Source: Bacteroidota bacterium (GTDB lineage: Bacteria; Bacteroidota; Bacteroidia; Bacteroidales; JAAAOM01). Taken from it: a stretch of 64,000 nucleotides of DNA. Below the pieces are notes generated by a model that saw only the letters and a program-made list of their open reading frames with translations, ran no database searches and was not told the DNA's origin. The DNA lies in the NCBI GenBank assembly GCA_009908855.1, contig JAAAOM010000046.1, forward strand, positions 1 to 64,000, written 5' to 3'. The translations under genes were made by a program, and so were the position numbers. The stretch's first letter is position 1. Each line of letters opens with the position of its first letter. Of this stretch, positions 43,888 to 53,473 are shown piece after piece.

Positions 43888-45552
43888 TTATCCCCTAAGT
43901 ATCTTCATAGCCTCCGTATCCAGGGCATCAGTCATAAACGGAATACCCGTAATCTCCTCGGTTTCACGGTTCGACGTAATTAAATCGTTGCGTGAGATAT
44001 CCGACAAGCTAAATTTACGTGCTCCTGCCATAAATTGCTGTAAACCGGCTGCCAATTTATCAGCATAGCCGTACATAGCAATAGCCCCGAATGGTATGTT
44101 TTTCATCTCATCTTCACCTACTATATTCTTAACCGTTTCCCATTCGCAAAATATCTCATCAGGGAATTTACCGTATTCAGTAACTGAATTCGGAAGCTGT
44201 TCCCAGTGACCATTAATACCGGCTTTACGGTCAGGATAAAACACACCTTCAATGTTGCTCCCCAGGAATCCGGCAATCATGGGTGCACGGCCCAGGCATA
44301 CAAGTTTGGTATATGGCGCTCCCAGTGCAATGGCTTTAAACAGATGATCCTCACGGGCAAAACCACCTGCAAATGAGATATCCGGTACTTTCATGCCTTT
44401 CTCTTCCAGTATTTTACAATACTGATATGCTTTGGCATGGAGCGCAACAGAAGGAATACCCCAGTGTTGCATCATATTCCAAGGACTCATACCGGTTCCG
44501 CCACCGGCTCCGTCAATGGTTAAAAGGTCCAGCCCGGCATCTGCTGAGAATCGTATGGCCATGGCCAGATTTTCCATACCGTAAGCGCCGGTTTTTAGTG
44601 TGATTCGTTTAAAACCTAATTTGCGCAAGTAAGCTACCGATTCCATAAAATCATTTCGTACTTCATCAACCGACTGGATGTCAGTGGCTCCCAAACGACT
44701 ATGACGGGCAAATGAGGTGATGGCACGTTTTTCAAATCGACGAATAACCACCGGGTCTAACGGATCGGGATCAACAATGTATCCGCGTTCTTTTAAAAAT
44801 TGCGCGTATTCAAGACTGTTCACTTGTATCTCGCCTCCGATATCTTTGGCGCCTTGACCCCATTTAAGCTCAAGTATTACATCGTTGCCATATTTTTCAA
44901 TCAGGTATTCAGCGACTCCGTTACGTGTATCTTCCACATTCATTTGAATAATAATGGCGCCATAACCATCGTAATAACGTTTGAAGTATTCGATGCGTCG
45001 CTCCAGCTCCGGGGCTTTTATAATTTTACCATGCTTAATTTCCGATTGCTGGTCGATGCCAACCACGTTTTCACCTACAACAATCGGAAAACCTGCCAAT
45101 GCAGCACCAACGGCAAAGGAAGGCCAGTATTTTGCGGCAATAAAGGTTGAACCCAGCGCACCAGTCATGATCGGAACCCGGCATTTGGTCTTGATCTCGT
45201 TACCGAAGGATGTTTCAACATTCACATTCGTAAAAATACAATCATCAGGATTATGGGTCATATTATTGGTTATTCCGGATGAACCGTACGCATAACCCTG
45301 TATACGCAATGCGTGATAACCGATTCCCAGCGATGTTACATGATTACCGCCTGAGGTTGAATCTCCAAATCGCCTGGGATATAACATTTTTCGTCCTTCC
45401 AGACAAGATAGCCAGGTTTCGCATTTACCTTTACAATTCGAATCACATAGGGTACATAAACCCGATTCACAGGGCACACCCCTGTTTACTGCTCCAAGAG
45501 CATCATTATTCTTTATCCACTGTTGCATAATAGTTGTTTTATAGTTATACAT
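43888..45552 (-). CDS. FMN-binding glutamate-synthase-family protein with N-terminal Cys-rich segment
   Basis: LTIDGAGGGTGMSPWNMMQHWGIPS; N-terminal CESGLCTLCDSNCKGKCETWLSC. Confidence 0.8.
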   Translation of the reverse strand: MYNYKTTIMQQWIKNNDALGAVNRGVPCESGLCTLCDSNCKGKCETWLSCLEGRKMLYPRRFGDSTSGGNHVTSLGIGYHALRIQGYAYGSSGITNNMTHNPDDCIFTNVNVETSFGNEIKTKCRVPIMTGALGSTFIAAKYWPSFAVGAALAGFPIVVGENVVGIDQQSEIKHGKIIKAPELERRIEYFKRYYDGYGAIIIQMNVEDTRNGVAEYLIEKYGNDVILELKWGQGAKDIGGEIQVNSLEYAQFLKERGYIVDPDPLDPVVIRRFEKRAITSFARHSRLGATDIQSVDEVRNDFMESVAYLRKLGFKRITLKTGAYGMENLAMAIRFSADAGLDLLTIDGAGGGTGMSPWNMMQHWGIPSVALHAKAYQYCKILEEKGMKVPDISFAGGFAREDHLFKAIALGAPYTKLVCLGRAPMIAGFLGSNIEGVFYPDRKAGINGHWEQLPNSVTEYGKFPDEIFCEWETVKNIVGEDEMKNIPFGAIAMYGYADKLAAGLQQFMAGARKFSLSDISRNDLITSNRETEEITGIPFMTDALDTEAMKILRG

Positions 45553-45853: not shown

Positions 45854-45883
45854 TTTGTAGTTCTAATATTATCTATATATTTG
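45854..45883 (+). promoter_or_regulatory. Bacteroidetes-type promoter of leu operon (TTTG-N18-TATATTTG)
   Basis: TTTG 45854-45857; TATATTTG 45876-45883; leader ATG 16 nt downstream. Confidence 0.7.
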
Positions 45884-45898
45884 CATCCAATTACAGAT

Positions 45899-45967
45899 AT
45901 GAAAAAGTACATATTCCATACTATCCTCACTATTATTCTGATTGGTATTCTGGGAATACGCAAGTGA
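45899..45967 (+). CDS. leu operon leader peptide (22 aa: 7 Ile, 3 Leu)
   Basis: MKKYIFHTILTIILIGILGIRK*; nested in alternative RNA hairpins ending in a terminator. Confidence 0.8.
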   Translation: MKKYIFHTILTIILIGILGIRK

Positions 45968-46037
45968 GAATGGTATGGAATAAAGTATTCTGAATAAATA
46001 GTTAAGCCATTCTCACGTTAAAGGGAATGGCTTTTTT
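45912..46037 (+). promoter_or_regulatory. Transcription attenuator (1:2 pause, 2:3 antiterminator, 3:4 terminator)
   Basis: 45912-45930 pairs 45964-45982 (17 WC + 1 GU of 19); 45964-45973 GTGAGAATGG pairs 46007-46016 CCATTCTCAC; terminator AGCCATTC 46005-46012 / GAATGGCT 46025-46032 followed by T6. Confidence 0.85.
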
Positions 46038-46096
46038 AATTTAAAAAAAACATAGAATAAAGTGTATAAACTGTTAAACCACAAAAACAATAAGTT

Positions 46097-47593
46097 ATGA
46101 GCGAAAAGTTGTACATTTTCGACACCACCTTGCGGGACGGTGAACAGGTCCCCGGCTGCCAGTTAAATACCTTAGAAAAAATTGAGGTAGCAAAGGCGCT
46201 TGAAGAGCTGGGTGTTGATATTATCGAAGCGGGCTTCCCGGTTAGTAGTCCCGGCGATTTTAACTCGGTAATGGAAATATCGAAAGCGGTGAGCGAGCCC
46301 GTAATTTGTGGCCTCACACGTGCAGTTGAAAAAGATATTGAAGTGGCTGCTGATTCGCTCAAATACGCCAAAAGAAAAAGGATACATACCGGAATTGGCA
46401 CTTCCGAATTTCATATTAAATATAAATTTAATTCCACGCAGGAAAAAATTATTGAACGAGCTGCGGCTGCCGTTAAATATGCCCGAAAATTTGTGGAAGA
46501 TGTTGAATTCTATGCCGAGGATGCCGGTCGTACCGACAATGAATACCTGGCCCGGGTTATAGAGGCTGTAGTGGCCGCCGGAGCAACAACCATCAATATT
46601 CCGGATACCACCGGTTATACCTTGCCTGAGGAATACGGTGCCAAGATCCGCTATTTGAAGGAAAATGTAAAAGGCATTGATAAAGCCATACTTTCCACCC
46701 ATTGCCATAACGATTTGGGTATGGCTACGGCAAACTCAATAATGGGCGTGCTAAACGGTGCACGCCAGGTAGAGGTAACCATCAACGGAATTGGTGAACG
46801 GGCCGGTAACACCTCATTGGAAGAGGTGGTAATGGCTTTCCGTAGCCGTCAGCATTTAAACATTGACACAGGCATAAATACAAAACATATTTCTAAAACA
46901 AGCCGTTTGGTTTCATCGCTTATGAATATGCCTGTACAGCCTAACAAGGCCATTGTGGGGCGAAATGCCTTTGCTCATTCATCAGGAATCCACCAGGACG
47001 GGGTGTTGAAAAATCGGGAAAATTACGAGATCATCAATCCCGAAGATGTTGGCATTTTCGAATCCACCATCAGTCTTACAGCACGGAGCGGAAGAGCAGC
47101 CCTTAAACACCGTTTGAAAATTATGGGCTATGATTTTGAGGGCGAAGAATTGGATGCCTTGTATCAGCAGTTTTTGGATATTGCCGATAAGAAAAAAGAT
47201 GTGAACGAAGAAGACCTTCAAATACTTGTAGGTCGGAAAAAAGTGAAAGACAAGCAGGATATTAAACTCCATTCATTGCAAATAATATGCGGTAAATCTA
47301 CTGTTCCGGTTGCCACGGTTGGGTTGGATTTTAATGGCGATGTGTTTTATAACACTTCCGAAGGAAACGGTCCCATCGATGCAGCTTTCAAAGCAGTGAA
47401 AAACCTTACCCATAAAAACTTCAAACTGGAAGAATTCCTGGTACAAGCCATTACCCGTGGTACTGACGATACCGGCAAAGTACACGTGCAACTGGAAAGC
47501 CAGGGACGGATATACTACGGATTCTCCGGGAATACTGACATTTCAACAGCAGCTGTTGAGGCTTTGGTTGACGGAATAAATAAAATTGTTTAA
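46097..47593 (+). CDS. leuA: 2-isopropylmalate synthase
   Basis: [31 protein letters not shown]; regulatory C-terminus. Confidence 0.94.
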
Positions 47594-47610: not shown

Positions 47611-49038
47611 TTGGCTGGAAAAACACTTTTCGACAAGGTATGGGACTCTCATGTAGTCTCTGAGATTGAAGGCGGGCCAAGCGTGTTATATATTGACCGC
47701 CATTTAATACACGAGGTAACAAGCCCACAGGCATTCGCAGGGCTCGATAAAAGGGGTATAAACGTATTGAGGCCTGAAAATACTATTGCAACGCCCGACC
47801 ACAATGTACCCACATTAGATCAACATTTGCCTATTAAAGATTATTTGTCAAGCTTTCAGGTAAATAAGCTCACCGAAAATACCGAAAAACACGGAATAAC
47901 CCTATTTGGCCTCAACACACCCAACCAGGGTATTGTGCACGTAGTGGGTCCCGAGCAGGGGCTTACACAACCGGGCATGACCATTGTTTGCGGTGATAGC
48001 CACACCTCAACACACGGTGCTTTTGGAAGCGTAGCCTTTGGCATTGGCACCAGTGAGGTCGAAATGGTATTGGCTACACAATGTATCCTACAGCCCAAGC
48101 CTAAGAGTATGCGCATTAATGTGGAGGGTGAATTAAAACCCGGTGTAACATCGAAAGATATCATTCTTTATATCATTTCACAAATCACGGCCAGCGGTGG
48201 TACTGGTTATTTCATCGAATATGCCGGGTCAGCCATTCGCAGCCTGAGCATGGAAGGACGCATGACCATCTGTAACATGAGTATCGAATCAGGAGCCCGC
48301 GGTGGATTAATTGCTCCGGATGATACCACCTTCAAATACATGAAAGGCCGCAAGTATGCCCCTGAAGGTGCGGATTTTGACAAAGCCGTGGCGTACTGGA
48401 AATCACTGCGTACCGATGATGACGCTGAATTTGATAAAGAAATCCATTTCAGGGCAGAAGATATTGAACCCATGATCACCTACGGTACAAACCCGGGTAT
48501 GGGAACGGGTATCACGCAGTATATTCCCAGGGAAGATGAAATTGAACCATCCAATCTGAAATCTTTCCGGAAATCAATGCAGTACATGGGTTTTAATGCA
48601 GGAGATAAACTCATTGGCAAATCCATTGATTATGTATTTGTGGGAAGTTGTACCAATGGCCGTATTGAAGACCTGCGTGAATTCGCACATTATGTAAAAG
48701 GCCTCAAAAAAGCCAATAATGTAACAGCGTGGATCGTTCCCGGTTCAAAACAGGTAGAAAAACAAGCCATTGAAGAAGGAATAGTTGAAATACTGGAAGA
48801 AGCCGGGTTTGAATTACGTCAACCTGGTTGCTCGGCTTGCCTGGCTATGAATGACGATAAAATTCCCGAAGGAAAAGTGGCTGTTTCTACATCCAACCGG
48901 AATTTTGAAGGGCGACAAGGTCCAGGCGCCCGCACCATGTTGGCCAGTCCGTTTACAGCGGCAGCTGTGGCCATAACCGGCGAAATAGCTGATCCTCGAC
49001 AAGTTTTTGGAATTCTTGAACCTGAAAAAGCAATGTAA
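47611..49038 (+). CDS. leuC: 3-isopropylmalate dehydratase large subunit
   Basis: [28 protein letters not shown] start. Confidence 0.95.
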
Positions 49039-49040
49039 TT

Positions 49041-49649
49041 ATGGCAATAGATAAATTCACTACAATAACCGCAACAGCCGTACCGGTGCCTTATGAAAAT
49101 ATCGATACAGATCAGATCATCCCTGCACGTTTCCTGAAAGCCACTACACGTGATGGATTTGGTGAGAACCTATTCAGGGATTGGCGATATGACAAAGACA
49201 ACAACCCTAAAAAGGATTTCGAACTCAACAATACCAAATATTCAGGCCCCATATTGGTTGGGGGTAAGAATTTTGGCAGCGGGTCCAGCCGTGAGCATGC
49301 CGCCTGGGCTATACATGACTATGGCTTTAAGGTTGTGGTATCAAGTTTTTTTGCGGACATATTCAAAAATAACTCACTGAATAATGGGTTATTACCCGTT
49401 CAGATTTCAGAAGAATTTCTGGAAAAGATTTTCTCAGCCATAGATAAAGACCCTAAGGCGCAGTTTAAAGTTGATCTGGAAAATCAGGAAATCAGCATAA
49501 TGTCAACCGGCGAAAAGGAAAAATTCGATATCAATCCTTATAAAAAAGAATGCTTAATCAATGGTTATGACGACATTGATTACCTGCTAAGCATGAAAGA
49601 CAAAATAGAAGCGTTTGAAAAAACAAGGGTTAAGCCTTATACTTATTAA
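49041..49649 (+). CDS. leuD: 3-isopropylmalate dehydratase small subunit
   Basis: [26 protein letters not shown]. Confidence 0.95.
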
Positions 49650-49700: not shown

Positions 49701-51230
49701 ATGACAGTAACCATCATGGATACAACCCTCAGGGACGGGGAACAGACCAATGGCGTTTCCTTTACGGCTGCCGAGAAACTGAGCATGGCCAAGTTATTGC
49801 TTGAAGACCTGAGGGTTGATCGTATTGAAGTAGCCTCGGCACGTGTTTCGGAAGGAGAGTTTCAGGGCGCGGAGAAAATTATTTCATGGGCCAGAGAACA
49901 TGGATATGAAGACCGCGTTGAAATCCTCGGCTTTGTCGATGGTAAGGCTTCATTGGACTGGATAAATAATGCCGGCGGGAAGGTCATTAATTTACTAACC
50001 AAAGGTTCTTTAAACCATGTAACCAATCAGTTGCGTAAAACACCGGAGGAACACCTGGCTGACATCAAAAAATCAATCGCTTATGCGCAGGAACTGGGCA
50101 TAAAAGTGAATATGTATATGGAAGATTGGTCGAATGGCATGCGCAATTCACCTGATTATGTGTTTCAGATGCTTGACGGCCTGAAAGATGAAGCCATTGA
50201 GCATTTCATGCTGCCTGATACACTGGGCATACTGAATCATAGGGAGGCGTACGATTTTTGCAACCAGATTTTGGAAAAATATCCGCGTCTTACTTTCGAT
50301 TTCCATGCTCATAATGACTATGATCTGGCCACTGCCAATACGTTTGAAGCATTAAAGGCCGGTGTGCGTTGTGTGCATACTACGGTAAACGGACTTGGCG
50401 AAAGAGCTGGCAATGTGCCGCTTTCAAGTGTGATTGGTATTGTTCATGACCATTTAAACCTGGAAATGAATGTGGACGAAGAACAACTTTATAAGGTGAG
50501 TAAGTTGGTTGAATCGTTCTCAGGTATTCGTATCCCACAGAATAAACCCATTATTGGGGAGCATGTGTTTACACAAACCGCAGGTATTCATGCCGACGGT
50601 GACTCCAAGCGCAATTTGTATTTTAACGATCTTATGCCTGAACGCTTCGGTCGCAAACGCATTTATGCCCTGGGTAAAACCTCGGGCAAGGCCAATATCC
50701 AAAAGAACCTGGAGGAGCTGGGTATTGAGCTTGACTCTGAAGACATGAAAAAAGTAACCGAACGTGTGATTGAACTGGGTGATAAGAAAGAAGTAGTTAC
50801 ACCTGAAGACCTTCCTTACATTATTTCCGATATTCTGAAAACAGAAAAGGTAAACCAGGAAATCAATATCAAAAACTACTCGCTTTCAGTAGCCGAAGGA
50901 CTGAAATCGGTTGCAACACTGAGCATGGAAATCAGTGGCAAGACCTATGAAGAAACCGCATCGGGTGATGGACAGTACGATGCCTTCATGAAAGCGGTCT
51001 GGAAAATTTACGACCGGCTGAAGAAAAAACATCCGGTGCTTGTGGACTATGTGGTTACCATACCTCCCGGTGGCAAAACCGATGCTCTGGTGCAATCAGT
51101 CATTACCTGGGAATATGGTAAGCAGTTTAAAACCCGCGGACTGGATTCCGACCAGAATGTGGCAGCTATTAAAGCCACCATTAAAATGTTAAACATCATT
51201 GAAAGCGACGAATTTAAAAATTATAAGTAA
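49701..51230 (+). CDS. Alpha-isopropylmalate/citramalate synthase family protein
   Basis: [32 protein letters not shown]; LeuA-dimer-like C-terminus; second synthase paralog within leu operon. Confidence 0.85.
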   Translation: MTVTIMDTTLRDGEQTNGVSFTAAEKLSMAKLLLEDLRVDRIEVASARVSEGEFQGAEKIISWAREHGYEDRVEILGFVDGKASLDWINNAGGKVINLLTKGSLNHVTNQLRKTPEEHLADIKKSIAYAQELGIKVNMYMEDWSNGMRNSPDYVFQMLDGLKDEAIEHFMLPDTLGILNHREAYDFCNQILEKYPRLTFDFHAHNDYDLATANTFEALKAGVRCVHTTVNGLGERAGNVPLSSVIGIVHDHLNLEMNVDEEQLYKVSKLVESFSGIRIPQNKPIIGEHVFTQTAGIHADGDSKRNLYFNDLMPERFGRKRIYALGKTSGKANIQKNLEELGIELDSEDMKKVTERVIELGDKKEVVTPEDLPYIISDILKTEKVNQEINIKNYSLSVAEGLKSVATLSMEISGKTYEETASGDGQYDAFMKAVWKIYDRLKKKHPVLVDYVVTIPPGGKTDALVQSVITWEYGKQFKTRGLDSDQNVAAIKATIKMLNIIESDEFKNYK

Positions 51231-51264: not shown

Positions 51265-52329
51265 ATGAAATATATGATCGCAACCCTTCCGGGTGACGGA
51301 ATAGGCCTTGAAATAACAGAACAGGCCATAAAAGTATTAAAAGCCATCGGCGATACGTTTAATCATGAATTTACTTTCGAACATGCACCTGTAGGGGCAA
51401 CAGCTATTGATAAAACAGGTAATCCATACCCGGTTGAAACACATGACCTGTGTATAAAATCAGATGCCGTATTATTTGGTGCCATTGGCGACCCAAAATA
51501 CGATAACGACCCCAAAGCGAAAGTTCGACCCGAACAAGGTCTGCTAGCTATGAGAAAAAAACTGGGTTTGTATGCCAATATCCGTCCGGTAAAAACATTT
51601 CCTTCGTTAATCCATAAATCCCCCCTGCGCAGGGATTTGGTTGAAGGAGCTGATTTTATTGTGATTCGCGAACTGACCGGTGGTATCTATTTTGGTGAAC
51701 CGCGTGGTCGTTCCGAGAATCAGGATACCGCTTTTGACACCTGCGTGTACAACAAAGAAGAAATAGAAAGAATTACCAGACTGGCTTTTGAATATGCCGG
51801 TAAAAGAAGGAAAAAACTAACAGCGGTGGATAAGGCCAATGTCCTGGCTACTTCCCGTTTATGGCGTGAAACAGTTCAGGACCTGGCAGGTGATTATGCC
51901 GATATTGAACTGGAATATATGTTCGTGGACAATGCCGCCATGCAAATTATACAATGGCCTAAAAATTTTGATGTGATGGTTACGGAGAATATGTTCGGTG
52001 ATATCCTGTCAGATGAGGCCAGTGTGATTAGTGGCTCGCTGGGATTGCTGCCTTCAGCTTCAATCGGGCTGCACACCTCAGTTTTTGAACCCATTCATGG
52101 CTCTTATCCACAGGCAGCCGGAAAAAATATTGCCAATCCCCTGGCTACCATTTTATCGGCCGCTATGTTACTCGAATCGCTTGATCTGCTGAAAGAGGCA
52201 GAAGCTGTACAAAAAGCTGTAGATGCTTCCATGGACCAAAATATAGTGACCCGGGATATTGCCGAAGATAATGCATCCACCACCTCAGAAGTTGGTGACT
52301 GGATTGCTAATTACATCGCAAAACAATAA
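51265..52329 (+). CDS. leuB: 3-isopropylmalate dehydrogenase
   Basis: [50 protein letters not shown]. Confidence 0.96.
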
Positions 52330-52482: not shown

Positions 52483-52564
52483 AGTAATGTTAACCCGGCC
52501 ATACGATTGCCCTGGCTTGCTTTGTAAAAGCGGTCGGTTTTGGTATAGACAGAAAAATACATAC

Positions 52565-53473
52565 ATGAAAACAATAACTTTTGACCGCGAAATGGTCAAA
52601 GCCTCATTAATAGGCTTGTTGGGCATCATTTTATTTTCATCCAAAGCGGTATTAGTGAAATATATTTATCAGTTTGATGTGGATGCTATATCGCTGCTAT
52701 TAATGAGGCTGTTGTTTGCATTGCCGTTTTATGTTGTCATTGGATTAGTTCATTGGCGAAAAAACAAGAATTTAAAATATAAACCCGTGGAATTTCTGCC
52801 ATTGGTTGTGTTGGGAATTATGGGATACTATATGGCCAGTTTTCTTGATTTTACCGGGTTACAATATATCTCAGCCAGCATGGAACGGTTGATTTTGTTC
52901 GTTTATCCAACCTTGGTACTCATCCTCACCCGCATTGTTTATAAAACAATAATTACACCGCAGCAATTGTTAGCCATATTACTTACTTATACTGGTATAT
53001 TCATTGCTTTTTCACAAGGTGCAGGTGGGCAAAAATTGGATAGGCAGTTTTTGACAGGGGCGCTATTCATTTTTTCCAGTGCATTAACCTACGCATACTA
53101 CTTAATGGAAAGCGGCAGATATATTCCCAAATTCGGGCCGGTTTTATTCACCTCTTTTGCTATGGTTATATCCTGTATTTGTGTAATTGTTCATTATATA
53201 ATTGCAGGTAAACCGGACGTATTTTCATTTCCTGCACCGGTTTATGTAAGCGCCTTGTGCATGGCCGTATTTTCGACCGTGGCCCCTTCCTTTTTAATCT
53301 CTGAAGCCATTCGCAGGATTGGTTCTTCTAACTTATCAATTCTTGGTAGCTTTGGACCAATTGCTACGATCATCCTGGCTTATATCTTTTTGAATGAGAC
53401 CATCACTACGGCCCAAATGGCAGGAACAGCTGTGGTGATCAGTGGGGTGATGATTATTAATCTGAAGAAATAA
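52565..53473 (+). CDS. DMT/EamA-family transporter
   Basis: 10-TM pattern, LLLMRLLFALPFY..., C-terminal FGPIATIILAYIFLNETIT. Confidence 0.85.
   Translation: MKTITFDREMVKASLIGLLGIILFSSKAVLVKYIYQFDVDAISLLLMRLLFALPFYVVIGLVHWRKNKNLKYKPVEFLPLVVLGIMGYYMASFLDFTGLQYISASMERLILFVYPTLVLILTRIVYKTIITPQQLLAILLTYTGIFIAFSQGAGGQKLDRQFLTGALFIFSSALTYAYYLMESGRYIPKFGPVLFTSFAMVISCICVIVHYIIAGKPDVFSFPAPVYVSALCMAVFSTVAPSFLISEAIRRIGSSNLSILGSFGPIATIILAYIFLNETITTAQMAGTAVVISGVMIINLKK

Follow-up and report, generated by a model that had tools for sequence, protein, structure and literature searches.

In enterobacteria, the leu operon (leuL; Rfam family Leu_leader) and the ilv operons are controlled by attenuators in which a leader peptide with branched-chain residues is combined with competing antiterminator and terminator structures. 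Leader-peptide control of such genes also occurs outside the Proteobacteria and in another phylum than ours: in Staphylococcus aureus, a leucine-rich attenuator peptide is reported for the branched-chain operon (PMC5794164). For the Bacteroidetes, a study of Flavobacterium psychrophilum mentions "strong clues" for leader-peptide attenuators before amino-acid biosynthesis operons (PMC9723704). This is a single sentence of its main text, which gives no leuA model, covariation or codon specificity; the phylum and the inferred mechanism are common to that case and to ours. There are also general remarks on leader-peptide attenuation in B. thetaiotaomicron (PMC7366714), and the Bacteroid-trp motif (RF01692) is a candidate cis-regulatory RNA of Bacteroidetes (PMC2864571). 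In the main texts of the openly accessible literature, we found no description of a Bacteroidetes leu/ilv attenuator family beyond these three papers.

We analyzed a window of 64,000 nucleotides from a Bacteroidales genome (contig JAAAOM010000046.1, positions 1 to 64,000). The first-pass annotation of this DNA had proposed a classical attenuator before the leu operon, and we conclude that the element is very probably a ribosome-mediated transcription attenuator whose signal is the level of charged tRNA for Ile and Leu. It resembles the enterobacterial leu and ilv attenuators in the branched-chain residues of its leader, in the preference of its family for the rare Leu codon CUA, in its competing antiterminator and terminator, and in the predicted use of ribosome position as the switch. 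Unlike them, the Bacteroidales leuA leader combines Ile with Leu and has hardly any Val, and Rfam detects no sequence relation between the two; the phylum and the type of promoter also differ, and the operon includes a citramalate synthase-like gene. A search of the window and its relatives against Rfam gave no leader family (Leu_leader, His_leader, Bacteroid-trp, or T-box) at the gathering score, and the best leader-type match was to His_leader, with 21.5 bits against a gathering score of 49. Neither the window nor the related loci that were scanned, trpE loci included, matched Bacteroid-trp. The mechanism is classical; the Bacteroidales version has no Rfam entry.

The leader upstream of leuA

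The features of the leader, all on the forward strand, are:

45854-45883 (+): Bacteroidota-type promoter, TTTG-N18-TATATTTG (pattern match)
45899-45967 (+): leader peptide ORF MKKYIFHTILTIILIGILGIRK, 22 codons with 7 Ile and 3 Leu (from the sequence; an Ile/Leu-rich leader is in the same place in about 68 relatives)
45912-45930 (+): segment 1, which pairs with segment 2 (protector; 17 Watson-Crick and 1 GU pair of 19)
45923-45943 (+): main control codons, Ile-Leu-Thr-Ile-Ile-Leu-Ile (codons 9-15; from the ribosome-mask scan)
45964-45982 (+): segment 2, the 5' arm of the antiterminator (core 45964-45973) and the 3' arm of helix 1:2
46004-46038 (+): intrinsic terminator (segments 3:4) with T6 (scan match; -15.3 kcal/mol)
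46007-46016 (+): segment 3, common to the antiterminator and the terminator, the exact complement of 45964-45973

The promoter and the leader ORF lie at the bases where they had been proposed, with TTTG at 45854-45857, 18 nucleotides, TATATTTG at 45876-45883, and a gap of 15 nt from the box to the ATG. The TTTG-N18-TATATTTG pattern has 5 matches in this 3.35 Mb genome. Among the relatives, 55 of 68 have a TANNTTTG box in the 60 nt that precede the leader ORF, as compared to 5 for the reversed pattern. The short ORF, which is predicted to be translated, carries codons for the amino acids of the pathway, and in the window its stop codon falls within segment 2.

The three pairings that the first-pass annotation had drawn from the letters were borne out. 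The leader as a whole folds far more stably than shuffled sequences do (z = -6.1, 0 of 200). Segments 1 and 2 form, in the window, the strongest such duplex among 68 loci (z = -7.7). The core of segment 2, GTGAGAATGG, and the bases 46007-46016 are exact reverse complements of each other, so that the 2:3 pairing is perfect over 10 bases; in the window this duplex reaches -18.9 kcal/mol (z = -4.2, 0 of 200 shuffles). Segment 3 also lies within the terminator, whose stem the scan places at 46004-46033, followed by the T run, so the antiterminator and the terminator are mutually exclusive. There are 3 terminator-like sites in this kilobase, versus 0.5 expected. The intrinsic terminator lies between the leader ORF and the first structural gene, and it is not the end of the upstream gene (43888-45552) because that gene is on the other strand. 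(The upstream gene encodes a protein of 554 amino acids that resembles, on visual inspection, a glutamate synthase domain; it matched none of the NCBIfam models.)

Conservation and control codons among relatives

We compared about 110 leuA loci, largely from Bacteroidales; at the level of the family, the genome set consists of this genome only. A terminator and an Ile/Leu-rich leader ORF are found 5' of leuA in about 70 of these, with the ORFs chosen partly by their Ile/Leu/Val content. Across about 68 relatives, Ile and Leu make up 0.45 of the leader in frame versus 0.24 and 0.08 in the other two frames. Duplex 2:3 exceeds shuffled sequences in strength (median z = -3.0, n = 70). In an alignment of 64 sequences, helix 2:3 has double changes in 10 of 14 pairs and helix 3:4 in 11 of 13. 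Helix 2:3 has 40 covarying cells, as compared to 11.7 ± 2.9 in shuffles, which ignore relatedness, and to at most 17 in slid controls, which retain it; the corresponding numbers for helix 3:4 are 59, 14.1 ± 3.1, and at most 18. Covariation and a conserved leader ORF had been set beforehand as the test that could overturn the proposal, and both are present across Bacteroidales, as are the control codons, the antiterminator, and the terminator. The predicted attenuator architecture is conserved across the order, with a related set elsewhere in Bacteroidota; locus L058 is one that shows the anatomy of the window leader.

Helix 1:2 is different. The first-pass annotation had included it as a part of the attenuator, and in the window it is real and very strong, but in most relatives it is weak (median z = -1.0; 19 of 68 loci at 5/100 or better). 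A general protector helix is not supported across the relatives: a strong helix 1:2 seems largely particular to this genome and outside the conserved core.

The Ile and Leu codons keep a fixed position relative to the RNA arm. In 68 leaders, the share of Ile/Leu among codons that start 18-20 nt before segment 2 is 0.86, falling to 0.75 at 15-17 nt, 0.45 at 12-14 nt, and 0.13 at 9-11 nt, and the Ile/Leu codons end 12-16 nt ahead of segment 2, in most leaders at 13-16 nt. A ribosome covers about 12-15 nt of mRNA ahead of its A site, and the spacing matches this reach. In the control zone of the leuA leaders, Ile and Leu account for 0.31 and 0.33 of the codons; Val is nearly absent, even though the ORF picker gave Val the same weight as Ile and Leu. 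CTA, which is the rarest Leu codon of the leuA coding sequence (2.3%), makes up 35.7% of control-zone Leu codons. The window leader itself uses CTC and CTG and not the rare CTA.

We trained a covariance model (R1) on leuA leaders only and searched the order and the phylum with it. A second match in the same genome (L149, G000:C9:132313-132422) lies 5' of ilvD-ilvB-ilvN-ilvC. Its leader is Val-rich, reads MNFSLVSVILFVVVVLLPQ from an internal ATG, and has the same type of promoter as the leuA leader. Within the order, all 19 of the matches away from leuA that we fetched precede ilvD or ilvB. Val occupies 59 of 203 control-zone codons (29%) in 17 ilv leaders versus 7 of 816 (0.9%) in leuA leaders (Fisher 5e-37, with sequences that are not independent). 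The amino acids encoded in the leader thus go with the downstream pathway. Strict matches within 400 nt of leuA occur in 33 of the order's 73 genomes with leuA, a count that is not independent, since some of the training loci belong to these genomes. The 40 without one count against the proposal; six of them have a match about 5 kb upstream, where the head of an ilvDBNC-leu operon would be expected to lie, and in the other 34 a strict match was found at neither position.

Outside the order, the matches include ilvE, ilvN-like, ilvA, and trpE leaders, mixed with ordinary terminators. Two of the trpE leaders (L174 and L182) contain three or four Trp codons in a row and have no Rfam Bacteroid-trp match. 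Weak matches in distant genomes (L173, L181, and L183-L185) lie behind gene ends and look like ordinary gene-end terminators; these were set aside. Six loci among the relatives (L150, L151, L152, L153, L154, and L186) have two units in series, each with a leader ORF and a terminator, about 130-170 nt apart, and these precede ilvB, ilvN-like, ilvE, or ilvD genes. L153 has an additional terminator upstream and possibly a third unit. The tandem attenuators of Salmonella mgtCBR likewise have two leader ORFs in series (PMC3641672), but mgtCBR is not a branched-chain operon, and the window has a single unit.

Ribosome position and the downstream operon

We folded the leaders with the ribosome as a mask of assumed footprint length, at the stage when segment 3 has been transcribed and segment 4 has not. 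On average over 68 loci, the computed probability of the antiterminator is 0.90 when the stalled ribosome sits on the last Ile/Leu codon and 0.01 when the ribosome is at the stop codon; without a ribosome, the probability is 0.33. With the stall, it exceeds 0.5 in 67 of the 68 loci; at the stop codon, the antiterminator is favored in 1 of 68. The values for the window are 0.999, 0, and 0.0002, which agrees with the earlier proposal that a stall on the Ile codons would favor 2:3. In silico, then, and with the assumed footprint, the position of the ribosome decides which helix forms. When the A site is scanned along the window leader, codons 3-16 free segment 2 and the antiterminator forms, while codons 17-23 do not; the full-length terminator loses most with the A site on codons 10, 11, or 13, and loses in part on codons 12 and 14. 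In equilibrium folding of the full-length leader with ribosome masks, the terminator is dominant in most loci even with a stalled ribosome. The switch would therefore have to be kinetic (co-transcriptional) and to depend on timing during transcription, as in classical attenuators.

The genes downstream are:

46097-47593 (+): leuA, 2-isopropylmalate synthase (NCBIfam NF002086, 730 bits, cut-off 532; TIGR00973, 679 bits, cut-off 599)
47611-49038 (+): leuC (TIGR00170, 674 bits, cut-off 560)
49041-49649 (+): leuD (TIGR00171, 210 bits, cut-off 116)
49701-51230 (+): citramalate synthase-like (cimA-like) gene (best model NF042433 CimA, 672 bits, below its cut-off of 950; next best model 348)
51265-52329 (+): leuB (TIGR00169, 469 bits, cut-off 353)

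The leuACD genes expected behind the attenuator are there, but the operon is larger than had been proposed, as it also includes the cimA-like gene and leuB. Citramalate synthase, together with LeuBCD, leads to 2-oxobutyrate, which is a precursor of Ile, so the operon would contribute to the synthesis of Ile as well as of Leu. This offers a reason for the presence of Ile codons besides Leu codons in the leader. Furthermore, a search for Thr_dehydrat_C (PF00585), which forms the C-terminus of regulated threonine deaminase, found no match in this genome (90% complete) or in 179 of the order's 198 genomes. This fits a citramalate route to Ile, although a threonine deaminase that lacks PF00585 could also be present. 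Directly 3' of leuB is a gene for an EamA-type transporter-like protein (52487-53470, + strand), which matched amino-acid exporter models below their cut-offs.

Alternative explanations and the proposed mechanism

The leader ORF might instead encode a functional hydrophobic small protein, such as a membrane peptide or a type I toxin, with a terminator that just ends its transcript. A hydrophobic peptide in a unit with a promoter and a terminator of its own would suit this explanation, but we consider it highly improbable: the Ile and Leu codons are fixed in position relative to the RNA arm and not to the ends of the peptide; Val is avoided before leuA and plentiful before ilvD, a difference that insertion into a membrane does not call for; the rare codon CTA is enriched; and the antiterminator covaries. 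It is scarcely credible that the leader senses a metabolite or a protein (as a riboswitch, a T-box, or the target of an RNA-binding protein) and that the ORF is incidental. A structured leader 5' of a biosynthetic operon would be expected of such an RNA, but no Rfam family reaches its threshold in the window or the relatives, the in-frame codons track the pathway, and without a ribosome the window leader folds towards termination.

A narrower version of attenuation, in which Leu alone or Ile alone is the signal and the other codons are passengers, seems rather unlikely to us. With their similar frequencies in the control zone, either amino acid could dominate; the family's preference for CTA would point to Leu, and the Ile-Ile pair at the most effective stall site in the window would point to Ile. 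However, both amino acids are conserved in nearly all leaders, the cimA-like gene with leuBCD would serve Ile too, and the distribution of Thr_dehydrat_C in this genome and in the order also speaks against a single signal.

We favor attenuation by both Ile and Leu. The anatomy, conservation, covariation, codon identity, and spacing come from sequence analysis and the effect of ribosome position from computation; from these we infer readthrough that would depend on starvation. The leader would be transcribed by RNA polymerase and its 22-codon ORF translated by a ribosome at the same time. When Ile and Leu are plentiful, the ribosome would reach the stop codon within segment 2; segment 2 would be covered, or paired again with segment 1, so that 3:4 forms and transcription terminates around 46038. 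A shortage of Ile or Leu would make the ribosome stall on codons 9-15 and cover segment 1, which leaves segment 2 free to pair with segment 3 while segment 4 has yet to be transcribed. Formation of the terminator would then be blocked, and leuA-leuC-leuD-cimA-like-leuB would be transcribed. Without a ribosome, helix 1:2 would form in this genome and the terminator would prevail.

More broadly, Bacteroidota probably have a conserved and uncatalogued class of attenuators, in which one scaffold is re-coded for each operon (Ile and Leu before leuA-cimA; Ile, Leu, and Val before ilvDBNC; Ile-rich before ilvE, ilvN, or ilvA), some lineages have two in series, and a single leu leader reads the supply of both Ile and Leu. 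The covariance model finds unannotated leader peptides before branched-chain operons. For a phylum that includes abundant gut bacteria and in which few attenuators are documented, the leader described here offers a concrete anatomy of amino-acid control that can be put to the test, and it suggests that coupling between translation and transcription is used for regulation in Bacteroidota.
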